21,910 nt of DNA. Source: a virus. How positions within the stretch are numbered: position 1 is the stretch's first letter; each line of letters opens with the position of its first letter. Under the pieces are notes generated by a model. The model was not told the origin of the DNA. It ran no database searches and saw only the letters and a list, made by a program, of their open reading frames with translations. Made by a program: the position numbers and the translations under genes. Positions 3,514 to 21,306 of the stretch are shown here, in pieces. The stretch spans positions 1 to 21,910 of IMG/VR virus record IMGVR_UViG_3300037493_001503; one strand, written 5' to 3'.

Positions 3514-3700
3514 ATGGATACTAATGTGCGTAACCCCAAAGTATCTAGAATGTATTGGCCAGCAAAGGAAGAAGTATGCATTTGAATCCACTATTGATTG
3601 CTCAAGATTTTTATTAGATTTTGTATCGGAATATGCTGCAAGTGTAGAGCATCAACAAAATCTTTTTTTTATTCACTTCATTTTAAAAACCTTTAGACAA

Positions 3701-3844
3701 ATGAAAACAACTATTGTACCCAGAGTAATTTTACTCACAGCTTTTGCTACCCTAATCTTAATTGCCGTAACATCATGTGCACACAGCAAGTATCAGCACT
3801 GTGATGCATACGGTAAAGTTGACACACAAAACAAATCAATATGA
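3701..3844 (+). CDS. very small lipoprotein with YQHCDAYG motif
   Basis: A 47-residue protein: hydrophobic signal helix (about residues 8-24), lipobox-like VTSC, then AHSKYQHCDAYG and a tail of only nine residues. It shares YQHCDAYG, in the same position after the lipidated cysteine, with the gene at 15-251. I chose the ATG at 3701. The reading frame is open back to 3524, but an upstream start would bury the signal peptide 59 residues in and give a mature part unlike the relative. The stop overlaps the next start (ATGA), so it is coupled to the metallopeptidase-like gene. Confidence 0.72.
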   Translation: MKTTIVPRVILLTAFATLILIAVTSCAHSKYQHCDAYGKVDTQNKSI

Positions 3845-8812: not shown

Positions 8813-9382
8813 ATGAAAACAGTTAACAGCTTTGATGGCTTACAGGAATTAATGTATTCCGGCCAGATGGAATCTAAGCAATTCCCAACAACTTCTGTTG
8901 TAGATTACACAACACTTACTCAAGGTCAATACAAAATGTTTAAACATTTAATGGTTGGTCTTGATATGTACACTCCTCAAGAACTTTATGCTATGAACAG
9001 TAGTAAGAAAGCTAAAATCTTTAAGAGAAATAAATTGACACAAACAATTTTAAATCTTTGGAAGCAGGAGATCATGTTAAATAAAACTAACAGCCTTGTT
9101 ACATTTGCAGACACTGAGTTAGTTTCTTTTACAAAAGAACACAAGAATGGTACATGTGCAGCACCAAATAGTTTTACTAAAGAGGTAAGCATTAAAAAGA
9201 ATGAACCATTGTCCAACATTTTTACAACGGCTGCATTGAAAAAGTTATTGTCTGTTGAAGTTAAACCAGATCCTAAATTCATCTGTACTTTATCATTCAA
9301 AGACTTGGGTATTACTAAGACTGACATCATTAAGAAATTGATTCAGGAAAATCTTTTACCTGTAAACTTTGCAGCTGCATGA
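8813..9382 (+). CDS. hypothetical protein
   Basis: A 189-residue protein with no recognised family. A helical N-terminal half (YKMFKHLMVGLDMYTPQELYAMNSSKKAKIF, read as separate helices) is followed by a Lys/Thr-rich part and a C-terminal helix (DIIKKLIQENLLPVNFAAA). Basic patches (KKAKIFKRNK) could contact nucleic acid. I chose ATG 8813; an upstream TTG at 8777 overlaps the acidic tail of the previous gene and is less likely. The stop overlaps the next start (ATGA). Confidence 0.7.
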   Translation: MKTVNSFDGLQELMYSGQMESKQFPTTSVVDYTTLTQGQYKMFKHLMVGLDMYTPQELYAMNSSKKAKIFKRNKLTQTILNLWKQEIMLNKTNSLVTFADTELVSFTKEHKNGTCAAPNSFTKEVSIKKNEPLSNIFTTAALKKLLSVEVKPDPKFICTLSFKDLGITKTDIIKKLIQENLLPVNFAAA

Positions 9383-9780
9383 TTACCAAGATGAAGGAAT
9401 GTAACGGGTGTCATCAACAAAAATACATTTACAAGAATGTAACTGTTGATGGCACTCGCTATAAACTTTGTAAAGATTGTGCATTCAAACAGGATGTAAA
9501 AGTTCAGCCAACGCGAACACAAATCAAAAAGGTTAGCGACAAAAAGAAAAAACTTGATGGACTATATACTAAACTTAGAAAGGTTCAGTTAGAAAAACAT
9601 CCGGTTTGTCAAATCAACACTGCTGATTGCACTAAACAATCAACTGAAATTCATCACGCTGCATATAGAACAGGTGATAACTTTTTAGGAGTTGATACAT
9701 GGTTTGCTACCTGCCGGGCATGTCACCAGTGGGTACATGCTAATCCAAAAGAAGCAAGAGAGTTAGGATTTTTAAAATAG
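9379..9780 (+). CDS. HNH-like zinc endonuclease with N-terminal zinc finger
   Basis: A 133-residue protein. An N-terminal CxxC pair (C8, C11; C31, C34) forms a small zinc finger. A basic linker (about 45-72) leads to an HNH-like domain: C77, C84, EIHH (90-93), a variable segment, then CxxCHxxxH (C112, C115, H116, H120). The IHH with the downstream CRACHQWVH is typical of HNH-fold proteins with structural zinc. It may cut or resolve DNA during replication or recombination. The canonical central Asn is not clear, so activity is uncertain. The start could be the ATG at 9379 (overlapping the previous stop) or 9391. Confidence 0.8.
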   Translation: MITKMKECNGCHQQKYIYKNVTVDGTRYKLCKDCAFKQDVKVQPTRTQIKKVSDKKKKLDGLYTKLRKVQLEKHPVCQINTADCTKQSTEIHHAAYRTGDNFLGVDTWFATCRACHQWVHANPKEARELGFLK

Positions 9781-10298: not shown

Positions 10299-11390
10299 AT
10301 GAATAAGAAATCAGAAATTCAAGCATCATGTCTTACAGCTATAGGAACAAGGAAATATTCTGGTGTTATCTTGGGTACAGGTGCAGGCAAAACTTTATTA
10401 GGCCTCAAGCACATGGCAAAAAGATATACAGATACATCATTGTTCTTGGTAGTCGCACCTAAAATATCTATTCATCAAGAATGGATAGGTCAGGCGCAAG
10501 AACATGGGCTTGAGTATCTGATACCACACATGCAATTCATAACGTACATCAGCTTACATAAAGCTAATTACAATTATGATTTTGTTTATCTTGATGAATG
10601 TCACAACGCTAAGAAAAAGCACGGTGATTGGTTGAGATTATATGACGGCCCAATACTAGGGTTGACTGGAAGTTATCCTAAATACAAAACATCTGAATCA
10701 TTTAAAGTTTGTGATGAGTTTTGTCCTGTGATTTATAAGTATGAGATCAGTGATGGTATTGCTGATCACATGCTTAATGATTATCGGATCTATGTTCATT
10801 TGCTTGAGCTAAACAGTAAGCCTTCAGTGCGTACTAAAAGCGGAGGACTTATGTCTGAAGTAGCAAACTACAACATGTGGACTAAGTTCATTGACCAAGC
10901 TAAAGATGAAAAGAAAAAGATGATACAACGGATCATGCGTTTAAAAGCAATGCAGTCATACAAAACAAAGGTTGACTATGCACAAAGATTGCTTAATGAA
11001 CAAACAGAAAAGACATTAGTCTTCACAGACTATACTGAACAAGCGGATCTTATCTGTAAACATGTGTATCATTCTAAAGAACCTAGATCAAAAGAGTACT
11101 TAGATTTGTTTAAGTCAGGAAAAATTAGTAAATTAAGTTCAGTGCTTCAGATAGCTGAAGGTGCAAACATACCCAACTTAAAGGTAGGTATCATAATGCA
11201 TGCGTATGCCAATGAAAAGAAACTCAAACAAAAGATTGGTAGGTTTCTAAGACTTAATCCAAATGAAAAAAGTATTGTACATTTACTGTGCTATGCGGAC
11301 ACAGTGGATTACTATTGGTGCAAGAGTGCATTAAAAGATTTTGATAAAACTAAAATATTCAAGTACAATGGCAAAGCTAGTATTACATAA
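10299..11390 (+). CDS. SF2 DNA/RNA helicase
   Basis: A 363-residue superfamily 2 helicase. Motif I (Walker A) is GTGAGKT at 26-32, motif Ia is VVAPKISIHQEW (51-62), motif II is DECH (99-102) and motif III is LTGSYPK (122-128). In the second RecA-like domain, TLVFTDYTEQAD, AEGANIPNLKVGI and QKIGRFLR (motif VI, with Arg fingers) are visible. It should hydrolyse ATP to move along or unwind nucleic acid, probably in phage replication or recombination. It is short for the family, with no accessory domain. It lies in the dense operon and overlaps the ClpS-like gene by 23 bases. Confidence 0.93.
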   Translation: MNKKSEIQASCLTAIGTRKYSGVILGTGAGKTLLGLKHMAKRYTDTSLFLVVAPKISIHQEWIGQAQEHGLEYLIPHMQFITYISLHKANYNYDFVYLDECHNAKKKHGDWLRLYDGPILGLTGSYPKYKTSESFKVCDEFCPVIYKYEISDGIADHMLNDYRIYVHLLELNSKPSVRTKSGGLMSEVANYNMWTKFIDQAKDEKKKMIQRIMRLKAMQSYKTKVDYAQRLLNEQTEKTLVFTDYTEQADLICKHVYHSKEPRSKEYLDLFKSGKISKLSSVLQIAEGANIPNLKVGIIMHAYANEKKLKQKIGRFLRLNPNEKSIVHLLCYADTVDYYWCKSALKDFDKTKIFKYNGKASIT

Positions 11391-11589
11391 TGATGACAAG
11401 AATAGTTTCATGTTTGTTAAAGCATGTTTGATTAGGTACTGTGAACACATGCCTATTCAAGCGGATCAATGTGTATTGATTGCACATAACAACAAGAAGG
11501 TAACTATTAAGAGTGGAGATTTTATGGAACTACTGGACATAAAAAACAATTTAGAAAATCACAACCTCAAGGTTGAATTAATACAGTAG
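11368..11589 (+). CDS. clpS: ClpS-like Clp protease adaptor, no N-terminal extension
   Basis: A 73-residue protein with the ClpS core: LVLHNDDKNSFMFVKACL, then QADQCVLIAH, then GDFMELLDIKNNL and HNLKVEL. In the family, NDD (here N8, D9, D10) and the His in xxxH (here H40) form the pocket that grips the N-terminal residue of N-degron substrates, and the core docks on the ClpA N-domain. Here the core starts almost at residue 4. E. coli ClpS (106 residues) has about 25 residues before it, needed to hand substrate to ClpAP. I chose ATG 11368, because the frame upstream lies inside the helicase gene. It may redirect or block host Clp proteolysis. Confidence 0.85.
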   Translation: MAKLVLHNDDKNSFMFVKACLIRYCEHMPIQADQCVLIAHNNKKVTIKSGDFMELLDIKNNLENHNLKVELIQ

Positions 11590-11888: not shown

Positions 11889-12097
11889 CAATTAAAGTCG
11901 AAGTACCCGATAACATTGTTGCATTACTAAGAGATGACTACGGTTATAGTAAACCGCAATGTGAAAACATACTCAAGACATTCTTAACACAAGTAATGTC
12001 AGGTTGGTATGGTGATTTTGAAACAGATTTTGATTTATGGTTAGCAGAAAAAGATGAAGAAGAGTTAAACCAAATTAAACAAGGAAGACAATTATGA
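11885..12097 (+). CDS. small acidic hypothetical protein
   Basis: A 70-residue acidic, helical protein: VEVPDNIVALLRDDYGYSK, then CENILKTFLTQVMSGWYGDFETDF, then an acidic tail. It overlaps both neighbours by ATGA. No family is recognised. It might bind the coiled-coil protein next to it, but only their adjacency suggests this. Confidence 0.68.
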   Translation: MTIKVEVPDNIVALLRDDYGYSKPQCENILKTFLTQVMSGWYGDFETDFDLWLAEKDEEELNQIKQGRQL

Positions 12098-12375
12098 GTT
12101 TACCAATGAAAATTATGTGCATCAATGATAAGAATAAACCTGCAGAAATCCCACAAGAAAAATGGGTACAAGCAGGTTCTATCTACACATTAGTAGAGGC
12201 ACAGCCGTTACTATCATCAAACTCACTCGGCTTTGTACTTGATGAAATCACCCTCGGAGAAGACTGTTTTCCTTATCACTATTTCAATCCAGACAGATTT
12301 GTTCCTATTGAACAATCAGAATTTGATGCATTAGACGCAGAACTGGATGAAATACTGAATCCTAAATTAGCTTAG
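12094..12375 (+). CDS. conserved small phage protein (MKIMCINDKNKP type)
   Basis: A 93-residue protein: MKIMCINDKNKPAEIPQEKW, then GSIYTLVEAQ, then GFVLDEITLGEDCFPYHYF, RFVPIEQ, and an acidic C-terminal helix. The order (INDKNxPxEIPxxxW, then GxxYTVxE, then GxxLxEI, then RFxP) fits a family I recall from Bacteroidota phages, role unknown. It is beta-rich, possibly an SH3-like barrel. Its start overlaps the previous stop, and its own TAG overlaps the next GTG. Confidence 0.75.
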   Translation: MSLPMKIMCINDKNKPAEIPQEKWVQAGSIYTLVEAQPLLSSNSLGFVLDEITLGEDCFPYHYFNPDRFVPIEQSEFDALDAELDEILNPKLA

Positions 12376-19732: not shown

Positions 19733-20117
19733 ATCCAAAGATGTAGAAAACCATAAGCTTGGTCAACTAGCACTGCTATCTGTGTTAGACAAAGACAATG
19801 CTTTATATTGGTATTTGACTTTAGAACCAATCAAAAGTTCAATTAAAGCAGATGAAGACTTGGATAAAAAAATGACAGATCTGTTAGAATGGCCATCTTA
19901 TACTCCAGCGATGGAGTGTTTAGCTAAAATGGTAAGTTACATTCAAAATAATTGTCCTTCACATTCAAGTATAGAAAAATTCTTTGTTTATTACAATGAA
20001 TATCTTTACAGTTTAATGTCAAGTACATGGACTTCAGAGATAAGAAAATCAATTAAATCACAAATACCACAGTTAAATGTCAGTAAACCTCCAACAAAAT
20101 CTCACGAAGATTTGTAA
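19695..20117 (+). CDS. hypothetical helical protein
   Basis: A 140-residue protein overlapping the primase gene by 38 bases. It is helical throughout: QSQEKKIKRLLESK, VENHKLGQLALLSVLDKDNALYWY, TPAMECLAKMVSYIQN. No family is recognised. Because it lies between the primase and the metallopeptidase/VWA gene, and overlaps the next gene by 41 bases, it is translated in the same operon. Confidence 0.65.
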   Translation: MQSQEKKIKRLLESKDVENHKLGQLALLSVLDKDNALYWYLTLEPIKSSIKADEDLDKKMTDLLEWPSYTPAMECLAKMVSYIQNNCPSHSSIEKFFVYYNEYLYSLMSSTWTSEIRKSIKSQIPQLNVSKPPTKSHEDL

Positions 20118-21306
20118 AGACTTAATGCTAGAACAGCCATTTTATGGGCTACTGCTTCTAAATCTTAACAAAGAATGGACAGACAAAGTACCAACAGCCG
20201 GTGTTGGACTAGAAGGAATCAACTACAAGTTGTATATTAATCCGGAATTTTGGCAAACATTGTCTGAAGACCAGAAGAAAGGTTTGCTTCAGCACGAATT
20301 AATGCATATTGCATTCTTTCATATTACAGAATACAAGCATCTCAAAAACCATGAGTTAGCAAATACTGCACAAGATGTTGAGATTAATCAAAAGATTGAT
20401 CCCAATTATTTACCACCAGATGGCTGTACACTTGAAAAATTTAGTGATTATGACTTGCTTCCTGACGAAGGAACAAATGTTTACTATGAAAAACTAAACA
20501 GAGAAAGTGAAAGAAATGGGCCAGGAACAGGTAAAGGTAGCGGACAAGGTCAAAGTTTACTTGATGCCATTAAAGATGCTGTTGCTAATGGATCTATGCA
20601 AGTAACCAATCAAGGTAAAAACAACATGCGTGTTCCTAATCACCAATGGGATGACTTCGATGACCTATCAGAAACACAACAGAAACTCGTTGACAAGCAA
20701 CTTGAAGTCATGTTGGATGAAGTTGTTGAGCAAGTGCAAAAGATGCGGGGTACGATACCTAGAGAGGTCTTACAAAAGTTAGAAGCTTTAAAAGTAATTG
20801 AACCACCAAAGTTTAATTGGAAAGCTTACTTGAGAAGATACATTGGGAACAGTTCTAAAAACAGCATGCGTAAAACCAAAAGAAAACAAAGCAAGCGGTT
20901 TGAATTAGATTTTGGAATCAAAGTTCAGGAATTTTCAACCATCTTAATTGCAATTGACAGTTCTGCTTCAGTATCTGATGATGAAATTAAAGAGTTTATG
21001 CATGAAATTCACCACATGTACAAGTGTGGACATGATTTTACATTGGTTTTTGCAGACACACAGATGCAAGATCCAGTAAAATATAGACCAAACATTCCTT
21101 TGGTTATTAAGAAAAGAGGAGGTACTGATTTCAATCCTGTTGTAGATTATTACATACAACACAGAAAGAAATACACTACACTCATTTATCTTACAGATGG
21201 AGAATGTCCTGCTCCAAATGCGCCAGTTAAAAACATGTTGTGGGTATTATCTACAAAATGTCAGGACACAGATCATTTACCAGGAAAAACAATCAAGTTA
21301 AATTAA
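20077..21306 (+). CDS. metallopeptidase/VWA protein (DUF2201-like)
   Basis: A 409-residue two-part protein. The N-terminal domain has HELMH at 73-77 (zinc HExxH) and a downstream ANTAQDVEIN (96-105) that may supply the third ligand, as in DUF2201_N putative metallopeptidases. A Gly/Ser-rich linker (about 148-160) and a helical section follow. The C-terminal VWA-like domain has MIDAS DSSAS (294-298), GGTDFNPV (348-355) and TDGECPAP (373-380). The partner MoxR-type AAA+ ATPase gene begins 17 bases after the stop. MoxR/VWA pairs act as remodelling chaperones or in metal insertion; the phage substrate is unknown. The start 20077 lies inside the previous gene; 20125 is an alternative. Confidence 0.88.
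   Translation: MSVNLQQNLTKICKDLMLEQPFYGLLLLNLNKEWTDKVPTAGVGLEGINYKLYINPEFWQTLSEDQKKGLLQHELMHIAFFHITEYKHLKNHELANTAQDVEINQKIDPNYLPPDGCTLEKFSDYDLLPDEGTNVYYEKLNRESERNGPGTGKGSGQGQSLLDAIKDAVANGSMQVTNQGKNNMRVPNHQWDDFDDLSETQQKLVDKQLEVMLDEVVEQVQKMRGTIPREVLQKLEALKVIEPPKFNWKAYLRRYIGNSSKNSMRKTKRKQSKRFELDFGIKVQEFSTILIAIDSSASVSDDEIKEFMHEIHHMYKCGHDFTLVFADTQMQDPVKYRPNIPLVIKKRGGTDFNPVVDYYIQHRKKYTTLIYLTDGECPAPNAPVKNMLWVLSTKCQDTDHLPGKTIKLN

Follow-up and report, generated by a model that had tools for sequence, protein, structure and literature searches.

The 73-residue protein encoded at positions 11368-11589 (+ strand) of the viral DNA analyzed here, a stretch of 21,910 nucleotides that we call the window, is a real ClpS core, and it begins at an ATG with no N-terminal extension (NTE) in front of the core. 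Comparison with its relatives supports the short start as a trait of a whole phage family rather than as the mis-called start of one genome, and the selection acting on these phage ClpS proteins is purifying. Our preferred reading, to which we assign a probability of roughly 0.42, is that the captured ClpS core would be dominant-negative, shielding proteins that carry N-degrons or competing on the host Clp machinery.

A ClpS core behind a phage helicase

In a Pfam profile search, the 73-residue protein matched PF02617 (ClpS) at 5.2e-10 with 39.4 bits, where the curated cut-off is 23, and residues 2-68 aligned to profile positions 6-78 of 80. The Clp-type matches returned by the PHROGs profiles (0.0046) and by NCBIfam (0.00074, far below the NCBIfam cut-off) were weak, and a PDB sequence search with the single protein gave seven weak matches, none of them ClpS. 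The AlphaFold model, built on a 43-row alignment, has a mean pLDDT of 97.6 and a pTM of 0.84, with the predicted order strand, helix, helix, strand, helix, strand; residues 2-7 make up the opening strand. With this predicted model as the query, Foldseek found 35 matches in the PDB at E ≤ 0.001, mostly ClpS entries, and the top match was Mycobacterium smegmatis ClpS (9ayo_A) with a TM-score of 0.95 (query length) and an rmsd of 0.9 Å. From the fold match together with the profile match we conclude that the protein is a bare ClpS core. The first-pass annotation of this DNA had proposed a ClpS core with the NDD motif and the pocket His, and this identification stands, since both the profile search and the structural comparison returned ClpS and N8, D9, D10 and H40 are all present.

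All 21,910 bases of the window are identical to positions 7,298-29,207 (reverse strand) of a 117,346-base IMG/VR contig with 34.2% GC. The ClpS gene starts within the 3' end of an SF2-type helicase gene (10299-11390, + strand; phrog_16 DNA helicase at 1.7e-32, Helicase_C at 2.6e-8), the two overlapping by 23 bases. A small conserved gene with no assigned function lies downstream of ClpS (12094-12375, + strand), a place that a relative takes in 25 of the 26 loci compared, the exception being the huge-phage locus L094. Another small conserved gene, HNH-like by eye from its residue pattern, lies upstream of the helicase (9379-9780, + strand) and has a relative there in 22 of the 26. Further neighbours encode a DnaB-like helicase, a Sak4-like protein and a primase. 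Two sets of loci, which share contigs, were also collected through the helicase. Among the best 80 of 320 relatives plus five others, ClpS is located 3' of the helicase in 83 of 85 loci and the other two end within 18 bases; among the best 80 of 253 relatives of a more distant helicase, ClpS follows in 73, in some of them 0.5-2.4 kb away. Of the seven loci without ClpS, one had 6 bases of sequence left and two had 2.2 and 3.0 kb, another carries ClpS on the same contig just past the stretch examined (L306, compared with L080), and in L315, L356 and L360 ClpS was absent from the 4.5-6 kb past the helicase. By these counts, ClpS comes near to being a core gene of these phages, though it is not universal.

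The TerL of the parent contig shows ~25% identity to its counterparts in Flavobacterium psychrophilum phages (FpV4/Fpv3, for example), and the 114 records that match it include 30 Bacteroides phages as well as one named crAssphage. With TerL, portal and major head protein taken as markers of crAss-like phages, the contig also gave phrog_6681, 6547 and 11589. A megablast of the window against named phages gave no match. From TerL and the ClpS tree described below we infer a possible distant crAss-like kinship for the window phage, and the TerL matches and the same tree suggest a Bacteroidota host. Two other features of the window deserve mention. A metallopeptidase and VWA-like protein (DUF2201_N/DUF2201) is encoded at 20077-21306, and on the parent contig its gene sits beside one for a phrog_1297 ATPase (L015:6691-7950); the two may form an AAA ATPase/VWA pair. 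Two small ORFs, at 15-251 and 3524-3844, have in common an SCxxSxYQHCDAYG-like stretch after a hydrophobic segment and look like duplicated lipoprotein-like genes.

Start codons and the missing N-terminal extension

The ATG at 11368 is the sole in-frame ATG of the 73-residue ORF; the alternative start, a TTG at 11341, lies inside the helicase gene and would add nine residues. In the relative L005, which is 81% identical, a stop codon at the third codon 5' of the ATG closes the upstream frame and therefore allows no upstream start. Residue 1 of the window protein falls at residue 27 of E. coli ClpS, the core of which comprises residues 27-106 (PMC9663308); no residue precedes the core in the window protein, and four to five residues do in 38 of 43 distinct family proteins.

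These family proteins came from two ClpS scans of viral contigs with 13 and 76 loci on partly shared contigs. The 81 rows contained 47 distinct strings, of which 45 were used (L066, near L062, and L081, at a contig end, were omitted), and the 43-protein set includes the window but leaves out its identical protein L002 and the huge-phage protein L094. In 35 of the 43 the pocket Asn comes 12 codons after the nearest ATG, in three it comes 11 codons after and in five seven codons after, so that the short start, which the first-pass annotation had read from one gene, is shared by all 43 by this measure. Host proteins gave a different result. Among the best 80 of at least 566 ClpS relatives from a scan of species genomes, which are Bacteroidota by their titles except for one 'uncultured bacterium', the nearest in-frame ATG stands 24-42 codons before the Asn in 73, and it stands 24-67 codons before it in 24 of the 28 parsed among 30 further host loci (L207 and L208 were unparsed), these host starts being read from the DNA only. 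In many host rows, a GTG or TTG also occurs no more than 14 codons ahead of the Asn. The 108 host rows of this count include three that were picked at the wrong place (L127, L133 and L191), which were dropped before the 105-row residue comparison.

With the helicase-found loci added, the phage collection grew to 235 loci, many on shared contigs, and yielded 112 distinct parsed proteins, with five ORFs unparsed. For the loci collected through the helicase, a Met within the core is in some cases the nearest ATG, and minimum distances taken from it place the N-terminus too close. The farthest in-frame ATG before the pocket Asn is no more than 13 codons away in 90 of the 112, 14-19 codons in four and at least 20 codons in 18; if GTG and TTG also count as starts, an N-terminus more than 14 codons ahead of the Asn is possible in 31 of the 112. 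Fourteen of the 18 proteins with a distant ATG belong to a single clade (L059-L081 and L092), in which that ATG coincides with the helicase stop or is close to it. In 17 rows (L059-L079 and L092), a nearly invariant inverted repeat, TTCCATA-8 bases-TATGGAA, surrounds the later ClpS ATG about 15-40 bases 5' of the core (near 1999-2020 in L075, for example), and some rows have an A-to-G change in its spacer. The repeat resembles an operator or an mRNA hairpin that covers the start. Among nine rows of the L067-like clade, third positions vary at 1 of 9 in the leader versus 10 of 21 in the core. The near-invariant leader together with the inverted repeat looks like a constraint at the DNA or RNA level, and we read the leader of the L059-L081/L092 clade as regulatory, though a long start there is possible.

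The proteins with an ATG at least 20 codons upstream, most of them in this one clade, are what would be expected if the short start were mis-called, but the closed frame of L005 and the 90 proteins that have no ATG beyond 13 codons argue against it. Both a mis-called start and a decaying gene also have to be reconciled with the low dN/dS, which is 0.09-0.24 across 10 pairs of the window's own clade, with dS saturated in some, and has a median of 0.32 (range 0.04-0.71) across 96 pairs of other clades with dS of 0.2-1.5, as well as with the L067-like leader, which hardly varies and has the inverted repeat round its ATG. We regard this explanation as very improbable.

In a 149-row tree, the 43 phage proteins form one clade with support of 96/90 among 105 cellular rows; the tree is rough, with few columns and an unsettled bootstrap, and since all of its cellular rows come from Bacteroidota draws, it leaves another source phylum possible when taken alone. 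A single phage clade among Bacteroidota ClpS makes one capture of ClpS with loss of the NTE the simplest account. Of 148 genomes sampled from the phylum to which a Flavobacterium genome belongs, 146 have ClpS, and Clp_N ATPases occur in five of five genomes of the phylum, implying that the target exists in the likely hosts; in the control Bacteroides ihuae, a ClpS match was absent.

Binding pocket, docking helix and possible roles

In the translation, the NDD motif of the pocket is formed by N8, D9 and D10 (11389-11397, + strand), the gatekeeper position is held by F14 (11407-11409, + strand) and the pocket His is H40 (11485-11487, + strand). We take N8, D9, D10, F14 and H40 to be the equivalents of N34, D35, D36, M40 and H66 of E. 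coli ClpS. In Caulobacter ClpS, the N-degron's amino group is bound by N47, D49 and H79 (PMC12493166, citing a crystal structure); the triad taken here, the Asn, the second Asp and the His, agrees with that paper. The triad is complete in the window protein (N8, D10 and H40) and in 22 of the 43 distinct family proteins. Among the 112 distinct phage proteins, the Asn is invariant and the second-position Asp is present in 111, while the third position is Asp in 80 and another residue in 32, versus 11 of 105 Bacteroidota rows (Asp in 94). The pocket His position holds His in 74 of the phage proteins, Asp in 36, Glu in one and Asn in one, so that the His is replaced in 38 of 112, versus 1 of 105 in Bacteroidota. 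Given these changes at the His and at the third NDD residue, N-degron binding of the Caulobacter type may not hold across the family. The gatekeeper is Phe in 96 of the phage proteins, Tyr in 14 and His in two. The first-pass annotation had suggested that F14 may alter specificity, a reading that we rejected; Phe is the Bacteroidota norm, found in 105 of 105 parsed rows, so that F14 is not specific to the phage and looks inherited.

Helix 3 of ClpS docks on ClpA in E. coli (PMC12493166). At positions 37, 41, 67, 83, 85, 89, 92 and 95, the host residue occurs in more than 60% of host rows and in less than 15% of phage rows, and the last five of these lie in or after helix 3. Within the helix, the phage proteins differ from the host at 83, 85 and 89, where the equivalence with E. 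coli E79/E82/K84 is unsure owing to gap placement. A mapping of the helix onto the E. coli contact residues was dropped, as the ungapped mapping and MAFFT disagree on the gap. The change in the docking helix appears to weaken the proposal, made before this analysis, that the protein sequesters ClpA, and the loss, in or after the docking helix, of residues that are conserved in hosts makes a normal seat on the host's Clp less likely and weakens our dominant-negative reading as well. Searches of phage records, for which completeness is not given, so that absence is not proof, found no match to Clp_N (PF02861) or to L/F transferase (PF03588) in any of 10 records of 112-123 kb, and none to AAA_2 (PF07724) or ClpP (PF00574) in eight of eight records, three of them over 100 kb. 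With PF07724, PF00574 and PF02861 all absent from the records searched, a phage-borne Clp machine was rejected, and any Clp partner of the phage ClpS is therefore probably the host's.

E. coli ClpS without its NTE is reported to bind ClpA and not to deliver substrates, a result attributed to Hou 2008 and Torres-Delgado 2020. The NTE enters the ClpA channel, where the pore loops grip it, and delivery is inhibited when this entry is blocked; with ClpA variants that are impaired in remodelling ClpS, the adaptor hinders the degradation of N-degron substrates (PMC9663308). In E. coli, truncation of the NTE also abolishes the degradation of ClpS by ClpAP (PMC12974527). By this literature, a core without the NTE should be stable and should not deliver, and a non-delivering, protease-resistant phage adaptor is plausible; the premise that delivery needs the NTE rests on E. 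coli and is carried over to Bacteroidota by analogy. According to the dominant-negative reading, an ancestor of these Bacteroidota phages would have taken up a host ClpS that then lost its NTE, and the remaining core would have been kept as a common conserved gene in the phage clade. The core would presumably still bind N-terminal residues of proteins, but the ClpA/ClpC pore would find no tail to pull on, and there would be no hand-over and no degradation of the core itself. It could thus cap N-degron proteins or compete for the Clp ATPase with the ClpS of the host, and phage proteins, or selected host proteins, would be spared N-degron proteolysis during infection. A broader scenario, that the clade turned a captured N-recognin into an inhibitor of the N-degron pathway by deleting the tail and that repeated loss of the pocket His marks lineages in which N-degron capping gave way to a hold on the Clp ATPase or on another ligand, is tentative and in our judgement rather doubtful.

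The same features can be read in other ways. The core might have been re-targeted to a different ligand or partner outside the N-degron pathway, for example a phage replication protein, which would fit the pocket replacements that are more frequent than in hosts, the changed docking helix and the placement of ClpS after the helicase in most loci. However, the first two NDD positions are almost invariant and the window protein has the whole amino-group triad; the other neighbours are conserved too, so the helicase pairing need not mean contact. A natural Leptospira ClpS with His-to-Asp and Met-to-Tyr changes still binds and inhibits its own ClpA (PMC12493166), implying that pocket changes need not mean that the Clp partner is lost. 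We consider re-targeting unlikely; what keeps it alive is the changed docking helix together with a pocket His that a third of the family has lost. The intact triad of the window phage would also suit a working adaptor that, without a long NTE, brings selected proteins of the host or the phage to the host's ClpCP or ClpAP, and a review of jumbo phages states that phage ClpS likely brings targets to host ClpAP (PMC7824862). This possibility seems quite unlikely to us, as the far-upstream ATG that is usual in hosts is absent from most of the phage clade and the NTE takes part in delivery in E. coli (PMC9663308).

Inhibition of Clp that spares N-degrons is conceivable as well, with the protein sitting on the N-domain of the Clp ATPase and altering the use of ssrA-tagged or other substrates, as Leptospira ClpS1 and ClpS2 inhibit the ClpA ATPase and the degradation of ssrA substrates (PMC12493166). 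In E. coli, however, it is the NTE to which the effect on ATPase activity and on ssrA selectivity is attributed (PMC12974527 and PMC12493166, both citing Torres-Delgado 2020), and the altered docking helix would not favour such a seat on the ATPase; we give this explanation little weight.

Comparison with known ClpS proteins

Phage ClpS has been published before, in jumbo phages (PMC7824862) and in Atu_ph07 (PMC6102473). A phage ClpS family without the NTE was not found in the literature searched, with most subscription papers outside its scope, and neither were phages acting against bacterial N-degron proteolysis. As a selected core without the NTE in 112 distinct forms, the family amounts to a natural test of which part of ClpS delivers; it could also test whether blocking the N-degron pathway helps a phage, and its members offer naturally occurring changes at the pocket His and in the docking helix.

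The jumbo- and huge-phage proteins (AMM43882.1, Atu_ph07 gp708 and that of LR756504) are likewise phage-borne ClpS. Three unannotated phage records of 635-642 kb (LR756502.1, LR756504.1 and LR745206.1) encode a relative that is 39-45% identical to the window ClpS. The ClpS of LR756504 differs from the window family in that an ATG stands 24 codons before the core Lys, far enough for an NTE, and it falls outside the family clade in the tree, whereas Atu_ph07 differs in being annotated with its own ClpA and Clp proteolytic subunit (PMC6102473). Among the 50 BFVD matches listed, four of 90-179 residues are named ClpS or Clp adaptor. The BFVD proteins A0A7M1RW86, A0A7M1RVY7, A0A7M1RYC8 and A0A7M1RVW0, which come from uncultured phages with crAss-type names (cr10_1, cr1_1 and cr50_1), show a ClpS- or L7/L12 C-terminal-like fold at weak Foldseek E-values of 0.002-0.024.

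E. coli ClpS shares the fold (TM 0.79-0.83 to the E. coli entries), and the window protein has the equivalents of its N34, D35, D36 and H66. It differs in the 26 residues that precede its core (PMC9663308), in its gatekeeper Met and in a few extra residues between strands 2 and 3, and the identity is 18-20%. Leptospira ClpS1 resembles part of the phage family in its natural His-to-Asp change and aromatic gatekeeper, but it is chromosomal and has a 22-residue N-domain (PMC12493166). The chromosomal ClpS of Bacteroidota shares with the phage proteins the sequence clade, the core length, the gatekeeper Phe, the NDD motif and the QAEQC helix. It differs in the ~18 residues that precede the core when translation is taken from the usual ATG, in having the pocket His in 104 of 105 rows, and in a pattern absent from the phage rows that is mostly Pro83, Cys85, Leu89 and Gly92.
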